Shown in pieces: positions 5,201 to 28,451 of a stretch of DNA of 39,444 nt (positions within the stretch are counted from its first letter, which is position 1; each line of letters opens with the position of its first letter). The position numbers were made by a program, and so were the translations under genes. The notes beneath the pieces were generated by a model. It searched no databases. It saw only the letters and a program-made list of their open reading frames with translations, and was not told the DNA's origin. This DNA is from a virus, in IMG/VR virus record IMGVR_UViG_3300028908_000004, positions 1 through 39,444 of that record; one strand, 5' to 3'.

Positions 5201-5895
5201 TCCTTTAGATTAGATAATCGTTCATATTCTCCGCCAAGTTCCATCTTGAAAATATCACTAAGCGTTACAGCTCCAGTACCAACACCCATTGCGGCCATAG
5301 CTAAAGCAGGGTTAGCAGTTAAAGCGCCAACTGCAATACCGGCAAGACCGCCAACAATACCGCCTTTTAAGAAGTTAACATACTGTTGACCAAACATTTC
5401 TGTGGCATTTTCTACCCAACCTAATGGCTGATTCCATTTGTATTTATTCCCCGGAATCTGTCTCATTTCTCTTTCTATTTCTTTTATCTTTTCATCAATT
5501 TGTTGTTCCTGTTCGCCGGTTAAATCCCTAGCCCATTTCTCATACCATAATAAGGCTTTTTGTCTGCTTAAAACTCCTCGTCTCCAAGCATTCTTAAGAT
5601 CACCCCAAAATGTCTGATGATTGGCGTGATTATCTCCAGTCCAGCTTTTTAAAATATCATCTACATGTCTATATGCCTCATCTTGTGGAATATGAAGAAC
5701 TTTAGAGAAAAATATCGAATTATTTATCTTTGCTTTTTCTGCATCAACATCTAAATCAGGCTCATAGGCTTTCTGTGCTTTTAGAATATTTTCGATCTTT
5801 TCATCTGCAAATGGCGGCACAAGAGGATTAGCAGTAATAACGCCATTAATATCAATTGTATGCGTCCCTGTGGGGAGAGGAAGAATGTCGCTCAT
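2215..5895 (-). CDS. Giant ejection / internal virion protein
   Basis: The product is 1226 residues. The start at 5895 (MSDILPLP) is chosen because GGGGAGGTGG lies just upstream and the ATG overlaps the previous stop as ATGA. A Gly/Ala-rich hydrophobic stretch lies at about 180-215. The rest is mostly helical and charged, with a Ser/Thr/Glu-rich linker near 385-430. The C-terminal half resembles the very large polyvalent proteins encoded next to tail genes in many podoviruses. Its place as last of three large genes between tail tube B and the fibre matches the T7 gp14-15-16 ejection set. No lytic transglycosylase motif was recognised. Role by context. Confidence 0.68.
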   Translation of the reverse strand: MSDILPLPTGTHTIDINGVITANPLVPPFADEKIENILKAQKAYEPDLDVDAEKAKINNSIFFSKVLHIPQDEAYRHVDDILKSWTGDNHANHQTFWGDLKNAWRRGVLSRQKALLWYEKWARDLTGEQEQQIDEKIKEIEREMRQIPGNKYKWNQPLGWVENATEMFGQQYVNFLKGGIVGGLAGIAVGALTANPALAMAAMGVGTGAVTLSDIFKMELGGEYERLSNLKDKNGKPIPDYLKKLGALTVGIANTALESFQLKWLAGSVVGKSLESSVMQAVLRTLRSNKYRSLIMRFLGRQALFTTEQTAQETLQNLTNIIIDNAAKLVANKFNNTDFQLDGKAAISELMATMRQSLGVFFVTGLPGHSIRALKESFAVDSPRGTLTEAEVESKPEVTTINDEVSTTETGQFSEPKDVILVKPKKTDHEIYEEYQQEAQNFKGSSSAKTPIEESYDRYKKVFFYKRDTRLYENDVYAKKMTDRINKIIDSIGLPKGVTKEDMKLALLVAIDAKSKEADLELYRPQVGEYERKIIDIARDLPSEFDEIVDELKSKADEISQAAVDAEIVQNALDNWFPRFWDVKKKENITNKDYNPFITFTPHLKQRKFSTIVEGWAKGYKLRITDPVQALHTMRRTLIQIIENKNFLNALAHLRDENGEKLLSTRYKEGYKKVKIPNFEVWTYVDTVSLAELMNDMRDLNKVKETVKPTIGASKLDKLATIVKNALVARGFTENEAISAINKIRQAKGDEVENVVKDVATEAMEREQITFKPIYDRDVIVTDKGAVLKKTEVYAPARVADNLNNIFGVSALKQIPGTAGKIIQALDKAQNMLKHNILFTSLFHAQAFLRSFLLGGNIDLNDVNLVASYKAGQDMILSMHPAVKTLIGNGLTLGLKQEWDAELLKQRTKLGELVDKIAPIAEIKKTLMGMRDAYESWLFEGLGANLKIMAAVRELSKLMKEYPDKNINELAEIVANEMNDDFGGLHLQRIGRNPTLQHIFKIFALAPDWTESNLRTVFKAFKKGVEGEVYRRFWMRIAIRGLGLTLLGNFAMAGGDVKEMARRYELAVKSGNIAKILSVDITPIFRLLGDEGMHEYYYSILGHFVDPLRAVFNPFRFMHAKGGVFYRTFQEMVTGEDWAGRGFNTLNDLLEEGATVSFRAKTGVIDYSRFPAFVIHSLIGWQPIPLQNMVGFVMGEQEQLEAFLNSLGFGIRKTPLEVENVNIFQY

Positions 5896-7901
5896 AATCC
5901 ACCTCCCCATGTGCCTAGGTCACTGAAAATGTCAGTAGTAGCTGCCGCTGATGGCGGTTCTGGTTTCTGAGGTTTTTGTTTCGCTCTCCTAACCGCCTTA
6001 TTGATGTTTTTCTTTTTGCCAATCGGAACTGTGGTAGTCTTATATTTTATTTGCCCCTGTGGAGTAAATCCAATTGCCTTAGTAGTCTTTTCTACCCATT
6101 CTCCATTCTGATATACATATCTTACTTGCATAATCTCGCCGGTATTAGCAATATAAGCAAACGTAGATGGCGGTTGCCATTCATCAAATGTGTCAATTAG
6201 TCCAGCTTTCTTGCCAGTTCCGTATGGAGTTACATGAATACTCCAATACTTACCATTTTTGCTCTGAAATACCGCTTCACCCCAAGGAGTTATAAAAAAT
6301 CCTCTAGTAGGATCAAATCCTCCGGTTAAATCTTCATAAACAGGATTAGTAGCAAACTTTTCAAATTGTTTCCATTGTTTGACTGCCAAATTTTTAAATA
6401 AAGGCTTGTATTTTTCAAACTCTTCTGCCGACAATCCGGCAAAACCATAATTAGAAATAAACTGTTCTAATTGTTCTATTTCATCTGCCTTTGTGGCATC
6501 TGATAAGTCAATGCCTTTATATTCCCCCTTTAGCCATTTACCTAAAAGTCCTCGTTTCTGTACCATACTAATAGTCACGTCACTCTGTTGTATAATAGAT
6601 TGAATTTCTGCATACGTAAACGGACGTATTTTACTAAAGGCTTTATTTAAAAGCTCAGTAATCGCCTGTTGATCAAGATTATAATTCCCATTCTTATCAA
6701 ACAACTGCTGTCTGTACATCTGTCTTGCTTCTTGAGCCACTCTATCTACAGTAAGTCTTGGAGCATATTTATAGGCAGATTGAATTCTTGCTTTTAACAT
6801 ACTTTCAAAAGCTGAGTTCTTATCAAAATCCTGTATTATCTGTCTTACGTGCATGAAGTTTGTTGCAGTAAATAGAGGGCGTCCATTCTCATCTGTTTTG
6901 CTAAAATATGGCTCTAAAGCTAAACTAATCTGATCCCAACTATATCCTTTTTGCCATAAAGAATAGGCTTTCATTAAAACCTGATTTTCAAATGCCAATC
7001 TCTTTGCTTCAATGCCTGTTCCAGTTACTTTTTCTTTAATCTCCCTCTCATAGGACTTAACCATATCAATTAAGATTTTATAATGACTTGGATTTGCTCG
7101 GCCTAGTCCTTGTCTTTGTAAATTAGCAATCTCTTGATACATTAAATCTGGAGACATGCGTTTTTCAATCGGAGCATTAAACATTGATAGCCCCTTAATA
7201 TAAAGGGCATTATCCATATCTTTAACTTTCTGAGTATATAATTGCTGAAATTGTTCTCGTTTATTTAAAGGAATATCCCTTGTCGTTCCGTCATAGTCCG
7301 TATAAGTCCAATTAGCAGGATTGGACATATATTTCATAGCCTCATCAAGATTCATTGTATCCAGTTGCAAGGCTTTTTCTCTAAGCGCTATATTTAAAAA
7401 GCCTTCAGATAATGTTTGCTCAGCTTCAACGTCAGATATAGTCCCAACCTGCTGGGCTGATTGTACTAGATTAATTAGCCCTTCTTTATCACCACGATCT
7501 ATATATGCCGATGCCTGTGTATTAAAATCATAACGCAATTTCGTTTTGTGAAGCTGTAAAGCCTGTTGAAATATGCGTTCTTGACTGTTTAGGACATCTT
7601 TTGTGAAATAATTTTCAAATGCTTCTTTGCCCTGTTTAGTAAGAAATTTGTCCGATATAAATTGCTTAAACGAATCAGATTGTTTATTAAAATCATCGAG
7701 GGCTTGCATATAATATGGCTGATTAGTTTCAGGATCAATTTTATACGGATTGGCTAAAAACTGATTAAACCAATCCATTTTAGCCTTAGACCACGCGTTT
7801 ATAGCATTATGATATTCCTGTACTGCGGTTTCCTGTTCGAGTTTCTGATAATATGTATTAGCAGCATTACTAAGCTGTGTTAGTAAATCCAAAAACTCCA
7901 T
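5892..7901 (-). CDS. Internal virion / ejection protein, 669 aa
   Basis: This is a long, mostly helical, Gln/Lys/Asp-rich protein ending in a Lys/Pro-rich segment and LGTWGGGL. A longer frame exists, but the start at 7901 (MEFLDLLTQL) has AGGAGAT at proper spacing. It sits between two other probable ejection proteins, overlapping the downstream start by 4 bp and leaving 4 bp upstream. No enzyme motif is recognisable. By order it corresponds to T7 gp15 (inference). Confidence 0.65.
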   Translation of the reverse strand: MEFLDLLTQLSNAANTYYQKLEQETAVQEYHNAINAWSKAKMDWFNQFLANPYKIDPETNQPYYMQALDDFNKQSDSFKQFISDKFLTKQGKEAFENYFTKDVLNSQERIFQQALQLHKTKLRYDFNTQASAYIDRGDKEGLINLVQSAQQVGTISDVEAEQTLSEGFLNIALREKALQLDTMNLDEAMKYMSNPANWTYTDYDGTTRDIPLNKREQFQQLYTQKVKDMDNALYIKGLSMFNAPIEKRMSPDLMYQEIANLQRQGLGRANPSHYKILIDMVKSYEREIKEKVTGTGIEAKRLAFENQVLMKAYSLWQKGYSWDQISLALEPYFSKTDENGRPLFTATNFMHVRQIIQDFDKNSAFESMLKARIQSAYKYAPRLTVDRVAQEARQMYRQQLFDKNGNYNLDQQAITELLNKAFSKIRPFTYAEIQSIIQQSDVTISMVQKRGLLGKWLKGEYKGIDLSDATKADEIEQLEQFISNYGFAGLSAEEFEKYKPLFKNLAVKQWKQFEKFATNPVYEDLTGGFDPTRGFFITPWGEAVFQSKNGKYWSIHVTPYGTGKKAGLIDTFDEWQPPSTFAYIANTGEIMQVRYVYQNGEWVEKTTKAIGFTPQGQIKYKTTTVPIGKKKNINKAVRRAKQKPQKPEPPSAAATTDIFSDLGTWGGGL

Positions 7902-16988: not shown

Positions 16989-17642
16989 TCACAAAAAATC
17001 GTAAGGATTCCAATCACTAGACTGTTGGGGTTCAGCTATACTAATGGGCTTATCAATTCTTTCTGCGTACCATAGGGCTATACCAACAGAGAGAACTAAG
17101 TCGTCATGAATGGCATCTCTAGCCGCTTCCATTGTAAGATTCCCCTTGGCAGTCATTTCATACTTAAAATTTTGGAGTTCCTTTAAAAAATGGTCAGCTA
17201 ATCTGAGCTTCTTTGATACTTTATAAAGCCCATTTTGTAATAATATTTGTAAAACTGCAATAATATCCAATTTTGGGACATTAAATCCGGTTTCTGTAGT
17301 TCGGTACTCTAGGCCTGAAGTAAGTTTAATCAGAACAGGATTCAAGCCTTCTTCAACAAACATTTCGGCAACGGCTTCACCAACACCTGTGGCATCAATT
17401 ACTAAAGCCGATTGGCCTTTTAGAACGTGGCTATTTAGGAAATTAACCATGAACTGGACTATATCATGATATGAAGTATCAAGAGGCGGTCTATAAAGGT
17501 ATCTAGTAAGGTATAAAACCTTTTCTGGATAAAGATCATCTTGGAGCTTAGCCTCTTCTGGGTAAATAATTTTTCTCTCTGTTACAGAGATTGCTGTATA
17601 ATCATGTTTTTTGCCTAAATCAACACCAACAAAATACTTCAT
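16989..17642 (-). CDS. Large terminase subunit, nuclease half (separate gene)
   Basis: The 217-residue protein is an RNase H-fold terminase nuclease: FVGVDLGKKHDY (Asp8), LVIDATGVGEAV (Asp83) and AIHDDLVLSVGIALW (Asp180/181) supply the three acidic metal-binding positions. It lacks any ATPase motif. Its ATG overlaps the stop of the ATPase gene as ATGA, so the two halves of a normal terminase are made as separate coupled proteins. It cuts concatemeric DNA during packaging. Confidence 0.88.
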   Translation of the reverse strand: MKYFVGVDLGKKHDYTAISVTERKIIYPEEAKLQDDLYPEKVLYLTRYLYRPPLDTSYHDIVQFMVNFLNSHVLKGQSALVIDATGVGEAVAEMFVEEGLNPVLIKLTSGLEYRTTETGFNVPKLDIIAVLQILLQNGLYKVSKKLRLADHFLKELQNFKYEMTAKGNLTMEAARDAIHDDLVLSVGIALWYAERIDKPISIAEPQQSSDWNPYDFL

Positions 17643-18616
17643 ACCTTGTACTCCTCCAATATCCCTTCTACATCTTCGCCGACATCTTCTACATCTACGT
17701 CTTGATCAAACAAAGCCTCAATGTCAGTAAAAGCATTTTCTAATTGTTCATAGCTAAAAACGGAATCCTCTGTCTCTACAAACTCACACAGGTACTCTTG
17801 CCTAAACCATAGTTCCCCGAGTGAAGCTAGCTCTTCTTCTAAAAACTTCTTTGTATGCCTTGGGCTGAAAAAACAGGTAACATTAGGAAACATCTCTTCA
17901 AGCTCTTCTTTGGTGAGCTCAATAAGTCTGCCATTTACTAGTTTAAAAGGCGGTCGTACAACAACCTTATTCCAATTGATGCCATTTGTCCATTCATTAT
18001 AAAAGAATCCGCGCTTACCAAATGGCGTTGACATCAGAATTAATTCCGTATCAGCACCAACCATCATTGGCCTTACCGCTTTATAAGAGGCATCCTCCAC
18101 CCTAGACGCCTCATCAATTATAATCATATCTGGCGCAGAATAAGACCTAACACTCCTTTCTGTTCCGGGCAACGCCACGATCCTAGAACCATTAACAAAC
18201 TCCTTCTCAAATACAGTATCGTGTACTAAAGGCGGAAGGTCTTTGTCCAATCTCATAAATCCTTCCATTTTTTTCATTAGCTCGACTGACTGTGGCTGAC
18301 TCGGACAAAGGATAAGAATCAAAGCCCCCGGATGATATTTGGCTCTTTTTATTGCTTTAGAACTAATGATTGTTGATTTACCTGATTGTCTGGCACTTAA
18401 TAGAATCGTTCGCTTGTGCGTTTCGTCTAGAACGTATTCCTGCCAATCGAACGGATCAAATCCGAGAGATTTAAGGTAATCGACAGGGTCTAGAGCATCG
18501 GCCAAAGTCTTTTGAATCATGGCTTCAAGGCCATAGACACCGATTGCGTCATTGAGTTCAATTGTTTGATCTGGCTCGGCCAGTCTATTTAATCTATCTA
18601 ATCGTTTTGATGGCAT
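17639..18616 (-). CDS. Large terminase subunit, ATPase half (separate gene)
   Basis: The 325-residue protein has a Q-motif-like DWQEYVLDE, Walker A SARQSGKST (74-82), Walker B MIIIDE (164-169) and coupling motif LMSTP (194-198). It ends with an acidic tail instead of continuing into the nuclease domain. The start overlaps the small terminase gene by 23 bp. This is the packaging motor; the nuclease is the next gene, overlapping by 4 bp. Confidence 0.9.
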   Translation of the reverse strand: MPSKRLDRLNRLAEPDQTIELNDAIGVYGLEAMIQKTLADALDPVDYLKSLGFDPFDWQEYVLDETHKRTILLSARQSGKSTIISSKAIKRAKYHPGALILILCPSQPQSVELMKKMEGFMRLDKDLPPLVHDTVFEKEFVNGSRIVALPGTERSVRSYSAPDMIIIDEASRVEDASYKAVRPMMVGADTELILMSTPFGKRGFFYNEWTNGINWNKVVVRPPFKLVNGRLIELTKEELEEMFPNVTCFFSPRHTKKFLEEELASLGELWFRQEYLCEFVETEDSVFSYEQLENAFTDIEALFDQDVDVEDVGEDVEGILEEYKV

Positions 18617-19250
18617 GGGCTATCTTTTTCCTCACTTCAGGTACGTCTTTAGTTGCTTCAAGAATTGCATGTTGAAACTTAAGAAATGTAGGATTGTTCA
18701 TAATATTGATTTGAATCGATTTAATCTGCCCCTGAATTTTGGCCAAAAGCTCTAATTGATTGGTCAAAACTTTGGCAGTATCTAAGAGAACTTTTTTAAT
18801 ATCCGTAGTCTTGATTTCGATGTTATTAAGAGGGATGTCATTTTGTACTAGATCAATTAGCTCTTGTAAAGTAGCTCTTGCACTTTTGCGTCTTCCCGTA
18901 GCAGGATCGATTGTTTCATAGATTACTCTGATTTCTCCGGCTCTTGGGTCTAAAGTGTACTTACTCGGGTCTTCAGGATCGGTCAAGTATTCGTCGCAAG
19001 CATCATACAATTTTTTAGCCCGCTCTGTAATCGAAACAATAGCATTCCAGAGCTTATCAGCATCTCTAAGATCAGCCAAATCATGGGCGTTTTTAAGCCT
19101 GACTGGGAGCTTGTCGTCTCGATACTTAATAATACTTGCTTTTCTAATATGGTACTTTCTAGCGATTTCAGATACAGGAACACCTTTAATCAGGTCTTCT
19201 TCTATCTGTAATCGGTTTGGGTGTTTTTCAACTGCATACGGCCTGCTCAT
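18594..19250 (-). CDS. Small terminase subunit-like DNA-binding protein
   Basis: The start at 19250 (MSRPYAVEKH) is chosen because GGAGGTGA lies just upstream. The 218-residue protein has an N-terminal helix-turn-helix (about 13-45: EEDLIKGVPVSEIARKYHI) followed by long helices, typical of terminase small subunits that recognise the packaging site. It is encoded directly before the terminase ATPase. Assignment is by domain layout and position. Confidence 0.78.
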   Translation of the reverse strand: MSRPYAVEKHPNRLQIEEDLIKGVPVSEIARKYHIRKASIIKYRDDKLPVRLKNAHDLADLRDADKLWNAIVSITERAKKLYDACDEYLTDPEDPSKYTLDPRAGEIRVIYETIDPATGRRKSARATLQELIDLVQNDIPLNNIEIKTTDIKKVLLDTAKVLTNQLELLAKIQGQIKSIQINIMNNPTFLKFQHAILEATKDVPEVRKKIAHAIKTIR

Positions 19251-19285
19251 CGTCACCTCCAAAATTCCAATCTTCCGGCAAAAAA

Positions 19286-20488: not shown

Positions 20489-20671
20489 ATCAAGCTATAT
20501 TAAACATACTCTAGTCTACTACATTGAAACAATAGTGTAAGAAATGAATACAAAGGAATACTCTTTCTTTTTGCCGACAAGGAGCAATTTTCAATTTTGG
20601 CCGACAACTAAAAACTTGTTAAGTAAAAGAAACCTAATCTACGAATATTTTTTTAAAAAAATAAAAAAATA

Positions 20672-20700
20672 TTGACAACATAAATAACATGTAGTATAGT
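20672..20700 (+). promoter_or_regulatory. Strong early promoter
   Basis: Consensus -35 TTGACA (20672-20677), 17-bp spacer and -10 TATAGT (20695-20700), preceded by an A/T tract resembling an UP element. Predicted start is about 20706. It drives the structured RNA and the whole hairpin-rich operon. Confidence 0.88.
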
Positions 20701-20705
20701 ATGGA

Positions 20706-21008
20706 TAGAAAAGGGAAGGGGAAGAGAGGCTGGAGGCCAGAAGGCCAAGAGCAAACCTTCCCCGGACAAGAGAAGGGCGCCCCGAGGGGCAGAGGAAGCA
20801 CAGCGACCCCGCAAGGGATCACCGTTGTGTGGAGTGGCTCTGTCGTGGTAGGGGCTGAAATAAAAGGGGAGGAGGCTAGTAGGCCGATTGAAGGGCTTTC
20901 GTGGAGAGCTCTTCAACCCGCCTATTAGTCCTGCCTTGGCTCCGGAAGTTGGATGCAATGTCCAGTCCCGGGCTTCCGGAGCTACTGCCGCACCGGGACA
21001 AAATTTTT
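20706..21008 (+). ncRNA. GC-rich structured RNA / long leader of the early operon
   Basis: About 300 nt, starting at the promoter, fold into consecutive helices. GGGAAGG (20713-20719) pairs with CCTTCCC (20756-20762), CAGAG (20790-20794) with CTCTG (20838-20842) and CACAGCG (20799-20805) with CGTTGTG (20823-20829). GCTAGTAGGC (20875-20884) pairs with GCCTATTAGT (20920-20929), enclosing TTGAAGGGCT (20888-20897) with AGCTCTTCAA (20907-20916). GCTCCGGAAG (20939-20948) pairs with CTTCCGGAGC (20973-20982). GTCCCGG (20965-20971), in that loop, can pair with CCGGGAC (20993-20999), making a pseudoknot or a terminator before AAAATTTTT. The open frame across it has no ribosome site. I match it to no RNA class I know. 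Confidence 0.75.
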
Positions 21009-21029
21009 AGAGGAGGAAGGAGGACGAGG

Positions 21030-21197
21030 ATGAGAAAATATAAAGAAGTAACTTTTTGCCCGCATTGCGGGCGAGAGACAGAATGCCATTGGGTATCCGG
21101 TGAATCTTACCATGAAGAGTGCCTCTACGAGGTACTCGTATGCTCCGTCTGCGGGGAGGAGGTGCCGCAGAGTTTTAGGTGGAAAGGAGGGGAATAA
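21030..21197 (+). CDS. Zinc-knuckle protein, 55 aa
   Basis: The first protein of the early operon begins at the ATG after AGGAGGAAGGAGG. It has two CxxC pairs (CPHC at 10-13, CSVC at 38-41) and an HEEC between them, consistent with a treble-clef or zinc-ribbon fold. The message is self-complementary: GCCCGC/GCGGGC at 21058-21072, GAGTGCCTC/GAGGTACTC at 21117-21137 and TCTGCGG/CCGCAGA at 21148-21171. Function unknown; possibly nucleic-acid binding or a host-takeover factor. Confidence 0.75.
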   Translation: MRKYKEVTFCPHCGRETECHWVSGESYHEECLYEVLVCSVCGEEVPQSFRWKGGE

Positions 21198-21198
21198 A

Positions 21199-21651
21199 AT
21201 GTATAAAGAAAGTATTTTCTCTCTTCAGGGCCTAGACAAGGCCCTTAGGAGTTTGTCCACGTCAACCGACGTGGACGTTATCTTTTCCTCCACCCTCTAT
21301 AGGGTGGAGGGGAGGAATGGGTTCCACGGCACACTTGCCGTGGAAGAGCTGAAGGGGGGGGAGATACCATCCCTCCACGCAATGGTAATCAGAAACTATC
21401 GGTGGGCACTTTTGCTCACCGATAGTGAGGTAGGCCCTGAATGGGCCGTGATCACCCCACCACCATGGTGGGGAGAGAGGGTAGTCAAGCTAATCCCGAC
21501 TACTCTCCCTATGTTTATCCAGAATCGTTTCTGGGACAAGGGACGACTTGTCCCAGAATCTAAGGTAATCATCACTCGTAAGAGAGTGGTGGTTACCTTT
21601 CCAGATGGGGGTGAATATGAACTTACCCCCATCGGGGGCCCCGACGAGTAG
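21199..21651 (+). CDS. Unknown 150-aa protein whose message is a chain of hairpins
   Basis: It starts 1 bp after the preceding stop with AAGGAGGGG upstream; longer in-frame starts lie inside the zinc-knuckle gene. The predicted protein looks beta-rich (VDVIFSSTLYRVEG, WAVITPPPWWGERVVKLIP, KVIITRKRVVVTFPDGG) and belongs to no family I recognise. Almost every base lies in a local stem (see the hairpin array). The stop codon lies inside the terminator loop. Ribosome site, length and amino-acid mix support real translation, but RNA function may be equally selected. Confidence 0.72.
   Translation: MYKESIFSLQGLDKALRSLSTSTDVDVIFSSTLYRVEGRNGFHGTLAVEELKGGEIPSLHAMVIRNYRWALLLTDSEVGPEWAVITPPPWWGERVVKLIPTTLPMFIQNRFWDKGRLVPESKVIITRKRVVVTFPDGGEYELTPIGGPDE
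21227..21633 (+). repeat. Array of twelve consecutive hairpins inside a coding sequence
   Basis: Stems in order: 21227-21245 (6 bp), 21255-21276 (9 bp, loop AACC), 21287-21310 (10 bp, loop CTAT), 21322-21345 (10 bp, loop CACT), 21365-21387 (6 bp), 21395-21426 (14 bp, loop CTTT), 21433-21447 (5 bp), 21455-21473 (8 bp), 21477-21507 (10 bp), 21529-21558 (12 bp), 21562-21599 (16 bp with two G-U), 21604-21633 (11 bp). A thirteenth is the terminator. Arms are different sequences, so this is not a tandem repeat but a series of unrelated inverted repeats. Confidence 0.9.
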
Positions 21652-21670
21652 GGCCCCTATATCTTTTTTT
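21635..21670 (+). terminator. Intrinsic terminator overlapping a stop codon
   Basis: GGGGCCC (21635-21641) pairs with GGGCCCC (21651-21657), followed by TATATCTTTTTTT. The TAG stop at 21649-21651 lies at the loop/stem boundary. Confidence 0.8.
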
Positions 21671-21730
21671 GCGCTATAGCGTACAGTACGCTACAGTACG
21701 TTATAGTGCGTTACAGTACGTTGTACTGTT
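21671..21730. repeat. Six-unit, 10-bp phased repeat with TACAGTACG core
   Basis: The block divides into six units of exactly 10 bp, with consensus TTACAGTACG and variants such as TTATAGTGCG. The last two units form the palindrome ACAGTAC-GTT-GTACTGT. One-turn helical phasing suggests cooperative protein binding on one DNA face; it could also fold as RNA. It sits between a terminator and the next small gene. Confidence 0.85.
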
Positions 21731-21759
21731 AAAAAACCTTAAACAAATAGGAGGATAAA

Positions 21760-21855
21760 ATGAAAACTATAACACAAATTGGAATAACAAATCTCGGTCG
21801 GCCAGTATTTATTCTGGCTACCAAGAACAGAGTGCATATACTGAGGGATAAGTAG
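21760..21855 (+). CDS. 31-aa peptide gene
   Basis: An ATG with AGGAGG six bases upstream opens a short frame encoding MKTITQIGITNLGRPVFILA and eleven more residues ending HILRDK. GCCAG/CTGGC arms (21801-21818) form a hairpin inside it. It lies just after the 10-bp repeat array. It may be a small regulator or a leader peptide for the hairpins that follow. Confidence 0.5.
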   Translation: MKTITQIGITNLGRPVFILATKNRVHILRDK

Positions 21856-21905
21856 GTTAAGCGGGGTGCAACTCCCCGCTATCCCTATAGGTTGCGTCGC
21901 AACCT
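21845..21905 (+). other. Intergenic double hairpin
   Basis: GGGAT (21845-21849) pairs with ATCCC (21881-21885), enclosing AGCGGGG (21860-21866) with CCCCGCT (21874-21880). AGGTTGC (21889-21895) then pairs with GCAACCT (21899-21905). The next gene's ribosome site follows 15 bases later. It may control read-through or mRNA stability. Confidence 0.6.
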
Positions 21906-21935
21906 TGATAAAAACTTTAGTACGGAGGTACAAAA

Positions 21936-22367
21936 ATGGATCTTGAAAGAGCATTGAAAAACCTAGAAGAGCGGAAAAGGTTAACAGAGAAGGGGAAGAA
22001 AGAGCTAGAACAGGTCTTTTCTCTTCTCCAGAAAAAACTCTCTGGAGAAAATCTTACTCTTCTTTCCAACAAACATGTGCCCCTAAAATGGGCACACTGG
22101 ACTGGAGAAACCCATATTTATGGGGATACTTCACACCCGGACAGCCCGGGTGTAAAAATAGGTACTATCGACGGCGTCGTAGGCCTATGGGAACCGTCCG
22201 ACTACTACGGCATGGATCGGTTTATCCCGACCTACGAAATTACTTACATTTCTTGGCCGAGATTAGCTGAATCACTTCAGGATTTTATCGATCAGCTTGC
22301 CAATCTTCCTCTTCCTACTGAGGAAGTGAACAAGCTAGAACAGATTAGAAAAATCCTAGAAAAGTAG
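21936..22367 (+). CDS. Unknown 143-aa protein with hairpin-rich message
   Basis: A helical N-terminus (DLERALKNLEERKRLTEKGK) leads to a beta-rich middle with HIYGDTSHPDSPGVKIGTID and a helical end. The start has ACGGAGG. Hairpins within the gene include TTCTCCAGA/TCTGGAGAA (22024-22049), TGTGCCC/GGGCACA (22076-22096), ACACCCGG/CCGGGTGT (22133-22153), CTGAA/TTCAG (22267-22280) and CTTCCT/AGGAAG (22311-22326). The family is not recognised. Confidence 0.72.
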   Translation: MDLERALKNLEERKRLTEKGKKELEQVFSLLQKKLSGENLTLLSNKHVPLKWAHWTGETHIYGDTSHPDSPGVKIGTIDGVVGLWEPSDYYGMDRFIPTYEITYISWPRLAESLQDFIDQLANLPLPTEEVNKLEQIRKILEK

Positions 22368-22389
22368 GGGCTGTGCCCCTACTTTTTAT
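22362..22389 (+). terminator. Intrinsic terminator
   Basis: AAGTAGGGGC pairs with GCCCCTACTT in a perfect 10-bp stem around TGT, followed by TTTAT. The TAG stop of the preceding gene lies within the stem. Confidence 0.85.
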
Positions 22390-22407
22390 TCTACCTATGA
22401 GGAATTT

Positions 22408-22437
22408 TACAGTACGTTTCAGTACGTTGTACTGTCA
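22408..22437. repeat. Second 10-bp phased array with TACAGTACG core
   Basis: TTACAGTACG, TTTCAGTACG and TTGTACTGTC follow each other without gaps, ending in a partial copy of the same palindrome as the first array. As at 21671, the array stands between a terminator and the ribosome site of a short gene, so both mark the head of a module. Confidence 0.85.
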
Positions 22438-22466: not shown

Positions 22467-22565
22467 ATGCAAATACAAAATTTTAACAGAGCATTAGCCA
22501 TAGAAGTATTAGGCGTATTTAACGGGGTATATATGTACCGGCAAGTTCCGTCGGGGAAGTCGTAA
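22467..22565 (+). CDS. 32-aa peptide, truncated module start
   Basis: GAGGGAG precedes an ATG encoding FNRALAIEVLGVFNGVYMYR and a short tail. The segment resembles the N-terminus of the 25133 product (KAQNILCAFQGIYM) and an internal stretch of the 22565 product (KIKAVCSIFGDVYM). Its TAA overlaps the next ATG as TAATG. It looks like a remnant of a module broken by recombination, or a coupled leader peptide. Confidence 0.5.
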   Translation: MQIQNFNRALAIEVLGVFNGVYMYRQVPSGKS

Positions 22566-23212
22566 TGCAAAATCCAATAAATGCTCTAAAATATATGTAC
22601 GGTTCAGGGGAAATTACTCCCGAACTAAACTACACAAGAAAATATGGGATCATTCCCCCAGCAAACATAGAAATAGGGGTGGACGAAAACGAGTGGGTAG
22701 TAGCTTATACTTCCCATTCTGGGAAGCTTTATGTTATCCGCCAACTCGACCCTAACAACTTTCAAATTATATACCCAGTTAATTCGTCTGTAGCGGGTGG
22801 AATAGAAGATGCAGTAAAGAAATGGGAAAATGTAAACTGGGAAAAAGTAAAAGTTGCCATTTCCAAAATCAAAGCAGTATGTTCTATTTTTGGGGACGTA
22901 TATATGCTACTTGTTGCACGCTACTTAGCGGGCTGGGAAAGTTTAGAGCAAGCTCACAACATGGCATTACGCAAAACACGAGCTTGTGAAGAGCCATACG
23001 GTGCATACACGGGAGAACTCCCGCAAAATGCACAGAAAGAGATTATAAATAGTCTTCATTTGCCTATAAAAGATGGGGAAGACTTTATCATCTATTATGC
23101 GTATGGAGACTATTTTATATTACGTATGGTAAACCATAATACCTTGGAATTTATATATAAAGTAAGATATTCAGAACTATCTGAGGAAATAAGAAAAATG
23201 GCAAAAGAATAA
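22565..23212 (+). CDS. Unknown 215-aa protein of duplicated modules
   Basis: Residues about 38-77 (ENEWVVAYTSHSGKLYVIRQ, then FQIIYPVNSSVAGG) match the C-terminus of the 25133 product. Residues about 97-203 repeat the whole module (helix KIKAVCSIFGDVYM, AHNMALRKTR, AYTGEL, LPIKDGEDFIIYYAYGDYFI). It is thus one and a half modules. Hairpins CTTCCCA/TGGGAAG (22710-22726) and CGGGA/TCCCG near 23010 are present. The start overlaps the preceding stop. Function unknown. Confidence 0.72.
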   Translation: MQNPINALKYMYGSGEITPELNYTRKYGIIPPANIEIGVDENEWVVAYTSHSGKLYVIRQLDPNNFQIIYPVNSSVAGGIEDAVKKWENVNWEKVKVAISKIKAVCSIFGDVYMLLVARYLAGWESLEQAHNMALRKTRACEEPYGAYTGELPQNAQKEIINSLHLPIKDGEDFIIYYAYGDYFILRMVNHNTLEFIYKVRYSELSEEIRKMAKE

Positions 23213-23268: not shown

Positions 23269-24027
23269 ATGGAAATAACAAGAGAAATAAAGAAAAATTA
23301 TCCTTATACACTGGAAGTTGTAGCAAAAGAGGGAACCATGCTTGAAACCTTTTGCTATGAAAAAACTTTTATAGGCTCAGAAATAGAGCCTATAAAAATA
23401 TATGAACTTAATACAGAATATGAGAGGTCGATGTTTTCCGACCTTATTACTAGAAAAGGATGGCTGGTGGCTCAAGAAGGACAATACATCGTAATTGAAA
23501 CAGCCGAGAAGAATAGGAAAAACAGAGACTTTGAAAATGAAACAGAAAAATGGTGGAGTGCATATACTCTTGAACCCCTCAAAGAAGAAATGCAAAAAAA
23601 TGGCAAATATTCATTATCACTCCTTTCAGGCAACTTCACAGAATGGGAAACCCCAAAAGAAATTTCTATAGGCTCAGAAATAGAACCTATAAAATTCTAT
23701 GAGAATGAGTTCCAAAGATACCCATACGTAGAATGGGGCGACGGGTGGACATATATAGTCCAAAGGGACTATGGATATATAATCCGCCAAAACGAAGTAT
23801 ACTATATAATAGTACAAATAAGAAAAGAAGAACCTCCAACAGAATATAGAAAACCGGAATACTCTTACTCTATAGTATTCTGTGAATTAACTATGTTCTC
23901 AAAACTTAGAGACAAAGAAGCTAAAATAGAATTTTTCAAAGTAAAACACAGATATGGGGAAATCTTTTCCAAAAAACTATTAAGAACCCCTAAGCATTTA
24001 ATAGGGGAAAGGATAAAATACCTTTAA
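23269..24027 (+). CDS. Unknown 252-aa protein with two GSEIEPIK repeats
   Basis: Two related halves each contain a YPYTLEV/YSLSLL strand, a GSEIEPIK-(I/F)-YE motif (about residues 36-45 and 137-146) and a GW/Y-rich strand with QEGQYIVIE or RQNEVYYIIV. It is a paralogue of the 24372 product. Each motif is encoded by a hairpin with a 7-base loop: 12 bp at 23367-23397 and 9 bp with one mismatch at 23667-23691. GGAG precedes the ATG. No known family; predicted all-beta. Confidence 0.75.
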   Translation: MEITREIKKNYPYTLEVVAKEGTMLETFCYEKTFIGSEIEPIKIYELNTEYERSMFSDLITRKGWLVAQEGQYIVIETAEKNRKNRDFENETEKWWSAYTLEPLKEEMQKNGKYSLSLLSGNFTEWETPKEISIGSEIEPIKFYENEFQRYPYVEWGDGWTYIVQRDYGYIIRQNEVYYIIVQIRKEEPPTEYRKPEYSYSIVFCELTMFSKLRDKEAKIEFFKVKHRYGEIFSKKLLRTPKHLIGERIKYL

Positions 24028-24040
24028 TCAGGAGGACAAT

Positions 24041-24361
24041 ATGAGTAGAATTATTAATCTTACACCACACGAAGTAAATATTTTCGTTAAGGGGCAACGT
24101 GCCTTAGTTCTGCCGGCAAGTAACGATCCAGTACGTTTAAGCGAGAAAATAGAACAAGTCGGGGAGATTAACGGAATTCCTCTTTATAGGGTACAGTACG
24201 TTTTAGACAGGCCGCTTCCCGAACGACAACCGGATACTTTTTATGTTGTCAGCCGGCTGGTAAAGGATCACGCCCCTGACAGAGACGACTTTATTGTCCC
24301 GTTCCAACTGGAGCGGGCTTTAAATGGAGCCGTAATAGGCTCTAAATCATTTGCTTTATAG
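24041..24361 (+). CDS. NLTPH-type conserved protein, 106 aa
   Basis: It begins SRIINLTPHEVNIFV, then ends YVVSRLVKDHAPDRDDFIVP and IGSKSF, the pattern of a widespread small protein family of unknown function found in phages and plasmids. AGGAGG precedes the ATG. The message carries hairpins such as CCCGTTCC/GGAGCGGG near 24298-24317 and GAGCC/GGCTC near 24330-24344. Two TACAGTACG-like words lie inside the gene. Confidence 0.72.
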   Translation: MSRIINLTPHEVNIFVKGQRALVLPASNDPVRLSEKIEQVGEINGIPLYRVQYVLDRPLPERQPDTFYVVSRLVKDHAPDRDDFIVPFQLERALNGAVIGSKSFAL

Positions 24362-24368
24362 GAGGAAT
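24336..24368. repeat. Duplicated gene-junction sequence
   Basis: The junction AATAGGCTCTAA...GCTTTATAGGAGGAA recurs with few changes at 25540-25567. Both copies place the ribosome site of the next gene at the same distance, marking module duplication within the operon. Confidence 0.65.
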
Positions 24369-24371
24369 AGG

Positions 24372-25136
24372 ATGGAAATAACAAGAACAATAGAAAAGAA
24401 CTATCCATACACGTTAAAAGTTATAACAGAAGAAAGCACGGATATAGAAACATACTACCTCGAAAAAACGCTTATTGGCTCAGATATAGAGCCAATAAAA
24501 ATATATGAAGCCATAGAAAAAGATGAAGGGGCTTTATATTCCGACTCAATCACCCGACAAGGATGGTTAATTTCCCAAAAAGGGAAATACATCCTTGTTG
24601 AAACCAAAGAACTGGACAGAATTGACAGAGACTTTCCTGACAGAACCGAAAAGTGGTGGCATGCCTATACAGTCGACATTATGACAAATCCAAGCTCCAG
24701 CCCAATCGTAGAATTTTTTACTGAAGGAACATGGGATAGACAATACAAATATTCACTAGAGGTACTTGCTGGAGAAAAAAAGGAAGCCCAATACTTTGAA
24801 GACGGATATTATGAAGAAGCAAAAGCCCCTCAAAAGCTTTTTGTTGGTTCGGAGCTAGAACCAATAGAAGTATATACGTATAAATATGAGGGATTCCCAT
24901 ATATATATGAAGGAGACAAAGACACATACACCGCAGAAAAAACCAGTGGTTATGTAATAAAACAAAAAAGAGAATATTACTTTATTCTCGCAAGGCAAGT
25001 GGGGGATAGGTATTGTAAAATAGAAGCCCCAGAAGATTGCCGGTGGGAATATGACTACTGGTTTGAGGCTTGCAAATTGAACTATCTCTCAGACTTTAGC
25101 GGGGAAATAAAAATAGAATGGGGAGGAATAAAATGA
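24372..25136 (+). CDS. Paralogue of the 23269 product, 254 aa
   Basis: The start at 24372 (MEITRTIEKNYPYT) follows GGAGGAATAGG; an upstream in-frame ATG overlaps the preceding gene's end. The layout matches the 23269 product: GSDIEPIKIYE near residue 36 and GSELEPIEVY near 159, each in a YPYTLKV/YSLEVLAG half. The codons form 10-bp (24472-24498) and 9-bp (24842-24866) hairpins with 7-base loops whose stems covary with the paralogue. Function unknown. Confidence 0.75.
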   Translation: MEITRTIEKNYPYTLKVITEESTDIETYYLEKTLIGSDIEPIKIYEAIEKDEGALYSDSITRQGWLISQKGKYILVETKELDRIDRDFPDRTEKWWHAYTVDIMTNPSSSPIVEFFTEGTWDRQYKYSLEVLAGEKKEAQYFEDGYYEEAKAPQKLFVGSELEPIEVYTYKYEGFPYIYEGDKDTYTAEKTSGYVIKQKREYYFILARQVGDRYCKIEAPEDCRWEYDYWFEACKLNYLSDFSGEIKIEWGGIK

Positions 25137-25543
25137 CGTGGAACATTCTAAATTTTAGAAGAGAGAAAGCACAAAACATTTTGTGCGCATTCCAAGGCAT
25201 ATATATGTGTATTCTCGGAGCAGAAATTAGAAATGGCAAAACACTTCGGGATGCACACAAAGTTGCCATGGTAGGAGTAGAGTATGCGAACGAAAAGAAA
25301 GAATGGTGGAATGCTTGCGCGCAGGGTGAATATGCTGGAAGTGGCGGGAAAAGAGAAGAAGAAGCGAGGATAGAATACCTAACTCTATTCTCTTTACCAC
25401 TTAGAGAAGATGAAGAATTTATTGCTTACACTTCCCATTCCAGAAAGCTGTATATTATTCATCAAATTGGAGAAGATACTTTTCAGATTATGTATCCGCC
25501 AAATTCTTCCGTGGCATCTGCCATGGAGAAAGAAGCACAATAG
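25133..25543 (+). CDS. Single-module paralogue of the 22565 product, 136 aa
   Basis: The start at 25133 overlaps the previous stop as ATGA and has GGGGAGG upstream. It contains one full module: KAQNILCAFQGIYM, a DAHKVAM helix, LPLREDEEFIAYTSHSRKLY and TFQIMYPPNSSVAS. Hairpins GCACAAAA/TTTTGTGC (around 25167-25186) and TTCTAA/TTAGAA lie near the start. The hairpin seen at the SHSGKL codons of the paralogue is not preserved here. Confidence 0.72.
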   Translation: MTWNILNFRREKAQNILCAFQGIYMCILGAEIRNGKTLRDAHKVAMVGVEYANEKKEWWNACAQGEYAGSGGKREEEARIEYLTLFSLPLREDEEFIAYTSHSRKLYIIHQIGEDTFQIMYPPNSSVASAMEKEAQ

Positions 25544-28386: not shown

Positions 28387-28451
28387 TGAAGCGAACGGGA
28401 TTTGAACCCGTGTCTTTTGGCATTAGGCCAAAATCGAACCATTTTCGCCCC
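28387..28451 (-). ncRNA. tmRNA tRNA-like domain without the mRNA domain
   Basis: The 65-nt RNA has a 7-bp acceptor GGGGCGA/TCGCTTC with G2-U71 and G3-U70, the latter the alanine identity pair. No D stem is present; instead there is an 11-nt D-loop region containing GGTTCGA, as in tmRNA. A 7-bp TTTTGGC/GCCAAAA helix replaces the anticodon arm and is closed by CTAAT. GAC then precedes T arm ACGGG-TTCAAAT-CCCGT, and the discriminator is A. GACnCGGGTTCAA and GGnTTCGA match the two ends of bacterial tmRNA. CCA is not encoded. The preceding gene's last ten codons and TAA lie within it. Confidence 0.72.

Follow-up and report, generated by a model that had tools for sequence, protein, structure and literature searches.

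The window, by which we mean the whole stretch of DNA analysed, is an entire IMG/VR virus record of 39,444 bases with a podovirus-like organization. Its gene set is that of a DNA phage and includes a portal, a head protein, a DnaB-like helicase, an Erf annealing protein and an exonuclease. A podovirus head-tail connector is present (PF12236, E 7e-121), and the major head protein is epsilon15/BPP-1-like (phrog_212 match and tblastn hits). The structural genes occupy the minus strand up to about 19.5 kb, and a plus-strand operon runs from a promoter at 20672-20700 to 25.9 kb. We call this operon early because of its layout, and the promoter and gene arrangement together suggest that it is expressed early. 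The hairpins considered here lie at the boundary between these divergent operons, where the following features can be recognized.

20646-20677, no strand assigned: probable operator, an AT-rich inverted repeat that overlaps the early promoter at its -35 box (from sequence and folding z)
20672-20700, plus: TTGACA-17-TATAGT, the early-operon promoter (agrees with the consensus at 11 of 12 positions)
20701-21029, plus: structured 5' leader (-138.3 kcal/mol, z -3.5)
21030-21197, plus: 55-aa zinc-ribbon-like ORF (Zn_Ribbon_1, E 2e-5, slightly below the curated cut-off)
21199-21651, plus: 150-aa orphan gene filled with hairpins (z -10.5, ten stems)
21671-21729, no strand assigned: spacer of 10-bp tandem repeats (TACAGTACGT-like; repeat families D2 and D3) that folds into two hairpins
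21936-22367, plus: 143-aa orphan gene with hairpins (z -5.9; stems 22024-22049, 22076-22096, 22130-22156 and 22305-22326)
22360-22386, plus: terminator-like element where the 143-aa gene ends, a perfect 12-bp hairpin with T-rich sequence after it
22565-23212, plus: 215-aa orphan gene, moderately structured (z -4.9)
23269-24027, plus: 252-aa gene, paralogue of 24351-25136, barely structured (z -1.2 to -1.5)
23367-23397, plus: IGSEIEPI hairpin copy 1, in the 252-aa gene (stem; silent-site covariation)
23664-23694, plus: IGSEIEPI hairpin copy 2, in the 252-aa gene (stem; silent-site covariation)
24041-24361, plus: 106-aa gene of the PADLOC Unk_01 family (E 2.3e-24; z about -2)
24351-25136, plus: 261-aa gene, moderately structured (z -3.7); a paralogue of 23269-24027 that carries IGSEIEPI hairpin copies 3 (24472-24498) and 4 (24839-24869)

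The ORFs of the hairpin region look real because AGGAGG-type ribosome sites precede them and because the annotated frame has the best codon score for the 150- and 143-aa genes; the 55-aa ORF fails the codon-score test. No usable relative of the 150-, 143- or 215-aa proteins was found among the phages, plasmids and IMG/VR records searched, and the same collections yielded no homologue of the 55-aa protein and no relative of the hairpin genes close enough to show block changes. The one IMG/VR match to the 150-aa protein (L001) was rejected as chance, since its 34 matched residues form a short stretch of an ORF that lies with structural genes. The 150- and 143-aa proteins gave unusable single-sequence AlphaFold models (pLDDT 38 and 45).

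Several other features of the window were noted. A related copy of the 10-bp tandem repeats of the 21671-21729 spacer occurs at 22407-22435, and additional TACAGTACGT-like copies lie within the gene at 24041-24361; the repeats between early genes are possibly repressor operators or origin iterons. The plus-strand stretch 22467-22564, before the 215-aa gene, reads MQIQNFNRALAIEVLGVFNGVYMYRQVPSGKS, which resembles the start of the 25118-25543 product, and it may be a shuffled or split duplicate. Each of the plus-strand paralogues 23269-24027 and 24351-25136 contains an internal duplication around the IGSEIEPI motif. The terminase large subunit apparently occupies two minus-strand ORFs of 222 and 325 aa (17639-19262, plus 16989-17642), an arrangement shared by a terminase relative (L024). 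A 65-nt tRNA-like structure on the minus strand at 28387-28451 scores 33.3 bits against RF00005, which exceeds the gathering score. Its T arm and acceptor stem are clear, its D arm is shortened, ARAGORN gives no call, and it is a candidate tRNA remnant, attachment site or decoy.

The preliminary description portrayed 21030-22384 as early mRNA composed of consecutive hairpins inside coding sequences, and the whole-genome folding analysis it called for bears this out. When 150-nt sliding windows on both strands are compared with dinucleotide shuffles, 15 of the 20 most extreme windows fall in 20626-22425, and the most extreme of the entire scan is 20626-20775 (z -10.3/-8.9). The mean z of the 21-22 kb interval is -5.1 on the plus strand and -4.5 on the minus strand, versus values near 0 for the late genes. 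A stricter test permutes synonymous codons while keeping the protein and its codon counts (200 shuffles). By this measure the 150-aa gene folds at -239.9 kcal/mol versus a shuffle mean of -164.9 (sd 7.1), and the 143-aa gene at -136.1 versus -103.4 (sd 5.5); none of the 200 shuffles was as low in either case. The 215- and 261-aa genes also depart from their codon shuffles, the remaining downstream genes of the operon range from z -1.1 to -2.2, and the late-strand genes range from -2.5 to +2.0, in agreement with the earlier impression that the structural genes lack similar folding. The proposal of three adjacent structured genes thus stands for the 150- and 143-aa genes, fails for the 55-aa gene (z -0.5, not significant), and was too narrow in that significant genes continue downstream. 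Overall, the hairpins begin past the promoter and the signal weakens along the operon, fading within about 3 kb.

Counts of explicit stems give the same picture. In 20.68-22.40 kb there are eight perfect Watson-Crick stems of 9 bp or more with loops of 3-12 nt, versus 0.055 expected from shuffles, and six occur in the rest of the window. The 150-aa gene holds ten non-overlapping stems (mean 2.1 in codon shuffles), which take up 287 of its 453 nt. The claim for this gene had been five or more perfect stems, each of at least 9 bp and with a loop of 3-8 nt; strictly perfect ones number four, and another three depend on G-U pairs. A supposed preference for 4-base loops is not borne out, as loops of 3-4 nt make up 0.38 of the total versus 0.34 in codon shuffles. 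The arms do differ among stems as described, the only repeated hairpin being the IGSEIEPI element in duplicated protein segments, and the two hairpins in 21671-21729 confirm that spacers are structured too. The in-gene hairpin feature is, in our judgment, real beyond reasonable doubt. Base composition or protein sequence might have produced such folding as a by-product, since G+C is 47% in the hairpin region versus about 37-38% over most of the genome, and this account holds for the 55-aa gene. For the 150- and 143-aa genes and their counterparts in the two other phages described below it is refuted, because protein- and codon-preserving shuffles do not recreate the folding, and as a general explanation it has almost no remaining likelihood.

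An alignment of the 23269-24027 and 24351-25136 paralogues led to a second phage with the same trait (L095; IMGVR_UViG_3300028908_000019, 42,288 bases). Its copy of gene 23269-24027 is 78% identical, and two other genes are 81-84% identical. The four genes directly after a TTGACA-17-TATACT promoter at about 5510-5538 have codon-shuffle z values of -5.7, -8.7, -3.1 and -6.0, those upstream of the promoter range from -0.1 to -1.2, and 22 stems lie in 5450-7300. A 29-bp inverted repeat at 5451-5517 occupies the position equivalent to the 20646-20677 repeat of the window. Both records were scanned whole, and each has one folding peak with the remainder near 0. None of the four hairpin genes has significant similarity to the 55-, 150-, 143- or 215-aa proteins of the window, so that hairpin genes have been replaced quickly between relatives that elsewhere share genes of 78-84% identity. 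One of them, at 5969-6298, belongs to the family of the window's barely structured gene 23269-24027, so members of one protein family can be encoded by genes that carry an array and by genes that lack one. This family has three members in the second phage (5969-6298, 7280-7969 and 8004-8834). A structured spacer between its hairpin genes (6300-6440) has a terminator-like CCTGCTATTTTTTTT stem at its end and matches no Rfam family at the gathering score.

A third phage emerged from a stem-density scan of roughly 80 podovirus loci gathered by head-protein similarity (1.15 Mb; background 0.196 stems/kb). The single further cluster, with 11 stems/kb, belongs to L011 (IMGVR_UViG_3300002966_000089), which is the nearest head-protein relative of the window (42%). 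Its hairpin genes again follow a TTGACA promoter. One, of 116 aa, has z -6.0; a second encodes a 278-aa AAA+ ATPase (Pfam AAA_5, E 7e-15) and has z -10.1 and -5.5 for its two parts; the last is long, has no Pfam match and gives z -8.0, -3.6, -1.9 and -2.3. By about 3 kb downstream the signal has disappeared, and z stays close to 0 in the divergent late genes. The ATPase gene is crossed by fifteen stems, including one at the sequence coding for PGRPVVVCLD, a segment that reaches into Walker B.

In all three phages the hairpins start directly 3' of the early promoter, and related phages retain them at the equivalent place while the proteins encoded there change. Because the hairpin genes differ among the three, the trait is tied to place and not to one protein. 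The early regions share no meaningful nucleotide similarity, and the earlier idea of a protein-coding RNA scaffold, taken as one common to the phages, is therefore not supported.

Comparable arrays are absent from the remainder of the roughly 80 podovirus loci, and from ten named phages and three further IMG/VR records (0.16 stems/kb). No hairpin-rich early region was found in the terminase relatives L024 and L091, and portal-protein scans of viral and genome contigs gave no matches. In the densest control, Thermobifida phage P318, 5 stems fall within 1 kb, most of them in a gap between genes. The 616 control ORFs average z -0.6, and a small-sample scan puts three of them below -5; two of the three match no annotated gene, and the third reaches -3.7 on a fuller rerun. 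Right-end genes of the same P318 (L108, 43731-46447), an unrelated siphovirus, form a contiguous run with z values of -4.2, -4.3, -2.2, -3.2 and -2.8 that is possibly a milder version of the trait.

Predicted start regions are mostly more open than gene bodies, and the mean openness of hairpin genes is not clearly below that of late genes. The median cost of opening a 30-nt window in the 150-aa gene rises from 10.9 in codon shuffles to 17.0 kcal/mol. Across the hairpin genes this median lies about 1-6 kcal/mol above the shuffles and is hardly raised in late genes; the most open 30-nt windows of the hairpin genes are not consistently closed. Stems inside genes with mostly open start regions could slow or pace ribosomes, lowering output or aiding the folding of early proteins. 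Such a role in translation is improbable, given that the leader and spacers are structured as well and that the affected proteins are very different across the three phages.

Whether selection acts on RNA or on DNA can be addressed from the composition of the stems. The three regions contain 690 Watson-Crick, 25 G-U and 7 A-C stem pairs, and the G-U to A-C ratio of 25:7 (p = 0.002) departs from the near 1:1 predicted by composition. In L011 the sense z is below the antisense z in all eight early segments that have an excess. The IGSEIEPI hairpin, known from seven gene copies in two phages, remains 90% paired and has double changes at three pairs linking silent codon positions. Its covariation score is 0.202 versus 0.114 in shuffles, a value reached by 6 of 500, and slid versions score at most 0.106; the seven copies are related, and these counts are consequently not independent. 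The G-U excess, the sense excess in L011 and the silent-site covariation favor selection on the transcript, and we consider it probable, if short of proven, that the early hairpins are selected at the RNA level.

The same data bear on a purely mutational origin, in which template switching during replication creates and repairs perfect inverted repeats that the proteins tolerate and no RNA selection is needed. Template switching can produce perfect stems in one event, a mechanism established for RNA genes (PMC8794818). It would account for stems that are almost purely Watson-Crick with arms that differ everywhere, for the quick turnover of hairpin genes, and for the finding that codon registers easing synonymous pairing are not preferred. 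In the second phage and in the 150- and 143-aa genes, moreover, sense and antisense fold about equally well, and strand-biased C-to-T mutation could also generate the G-U excess. Template switching stays a serious rival for these reasons: the strands are often equal, the pairs are nearly all Watson-Crick, and a C-to-T bias could raise G-U. It does not readily explain the 25:7 ratio, the consistent sense excess in L011 or the abrupt start at the early promoter, and unselected rearrangement should damage a recognizable AAA+ ATPase gene that the hairpins instead cross. On balance we think it unlikely, at roughly one chance in five. If it is nevertheless correct, nature has preserved in this region a record of how template switching acts on protein genes.

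A function in DNA is less probable still. Inverted repeats might act as cruciforms or single-strand hairpins, for example at a replication origin or during DNA entry. In many places the stem symmetry holds for both strands, spacers contain 10-bp tandem repeats, and the region separates divergent operons. The G-U bias and sense excess speak against this possibility, as do the restriction of the arrays to the transcribed direction, their extension over a series of genes and the lack of a shared motif.

The position of the hairpins in the first early genes, their stability and their independence of gene content fit a need of the first mRNA itself, and point to an early message that is protected or specially handled. 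We tentatively propose that selection at the RNA level favors strong self-contained hairpins in the initial 1.5-2 kb of the early transcript, beside its coding function. Stems would be placed by silent codon choice and tolerated amino-acid changes, and start codons would tend to remain open so that the message could be translated. The hairpins may then shield the first mRNA before phage counter-measures build up, the attackers being RNA-guided immunity (type III or VI CRISPR) or single-strand-specific RNases. In vitro, type III detection is weakened by structure in the target RNA (PMC8682760). Protection from RNA-guided defence or RNases, raised as a possibility in the preliminary description, is the reading we favor over the others. 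We give the combined reading, in which stable local hairpins are selected and serve most probably as a shield, somewhat less than an even chance; shielding from RNA-targeting attack itself is viewed with the same reserve, at about half the probability of selection on the RNA. The broader notion that DNA phages armour their first mRNA by recoding promoter-proximal genes of any content as hairpin arrays, so that RNA-guided or RNase-based immunity acts poorly before inhibitors are made, is more doubtful. Many phages do without a hairpin-packed early mRNA.

The 106-aa Unk_01 gene may provide a faint link between the hairpins and type III systems through its presence in the operon. PADLOC annotates this family as a small protein that is at times fused to CARF domains. 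Homologues of the 106-aa protein occur in Thermobifida, Paenibacillus, Microcystis and archaeal viruses, and the family is found in unrelated phages too.

A role in transcription ranks second to shielding. Nascent RNA structure limits backtracking and Rho loading, and the hairpins could prevent RNA polymerase from backtracking, block R-loops or exclude Rho. In favor of this role, they are local, start at the promoter, fade with distance and are independent of the encoded products. The longer late operons lack hairpins, however, and no termination or antitermination element was recognized in the region, which leaves this explanation unlikely, on a par with template switching. If the shielding interpretation is instead correct, synonymous codon choice alone could suffice for phages to resist RNA-targeting immunity, and a counter-defence borne by codon choice and not by protein would be missed by searches for anti-CRISPR proteins.

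Several known systems resemble these arrays in part. Positive-strand RNA viruses with genome-scale ordered RNA structure (GORS), and ssRNA phages with their structured genomes, also have coding RNA paired far beyond the needs of codon use, and a link between GORS and evasion of host RNA sensing has been suggested. A folding excess over sequence-order controls is likewise found here, with codon shuffles in three phages. GORS involves an RNA genome structured throughout, whereas here the structure forms a single peak in the first 1.5-2 kb of the early operon of a double-stranded DNA phage. Rickettsia palindromic elements are hairpin-forming copies of a repeat family inserted in protein genes, and they similarly place hairpin sequence inside ORFs. 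The phage arms differ from stem to stem, however, and a repeat search of 20.4-26 kb found no dispersed palindromic family. GOLLD/ROOL-type phage RNAs are also long, structured and phage-borne, but they are large non-coding RNAs of conserved architecture, unlike the hairpin genes. Rfam gives no match at E <= 1 in 20.7-22.4 kb and only sub-threshold, chance-level matches in the relatives. Genome-wide selection on mRNA folding in coding regions also shifts folding energy by synonymous choice; it is usually a weak average trend, whereas single genes here reach z -6 to -10 and have explicit stems.

We know of no described system in which gene-independent arrays of coding hairpins start the early operon of a DNA phage. 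Searches of open-access papers turned up no account of hairpin arrays inside the genes of phage early mRNA, a result that supports novelty weakly. Hairpins formed by template switching (PMC8794818) share perfect stems and differing arms with the phage arrays, and perfect reverse-complement arms are present in all three regions. That mechanism was described for RNA genes such as rRNA and by itself leaves the confinement to early genes and the G-U bias unexplained. The arrays depart from the closest known kinds in defining properties, and the novelty concerns the phenomenon and not its mechanism. What sets these arrays apart is the size of the departure from codon shuffles of the same gene, 6 to 10 standard deviations for individual genes, and its recurrence at a single defined position in three phages that carry different genes there.
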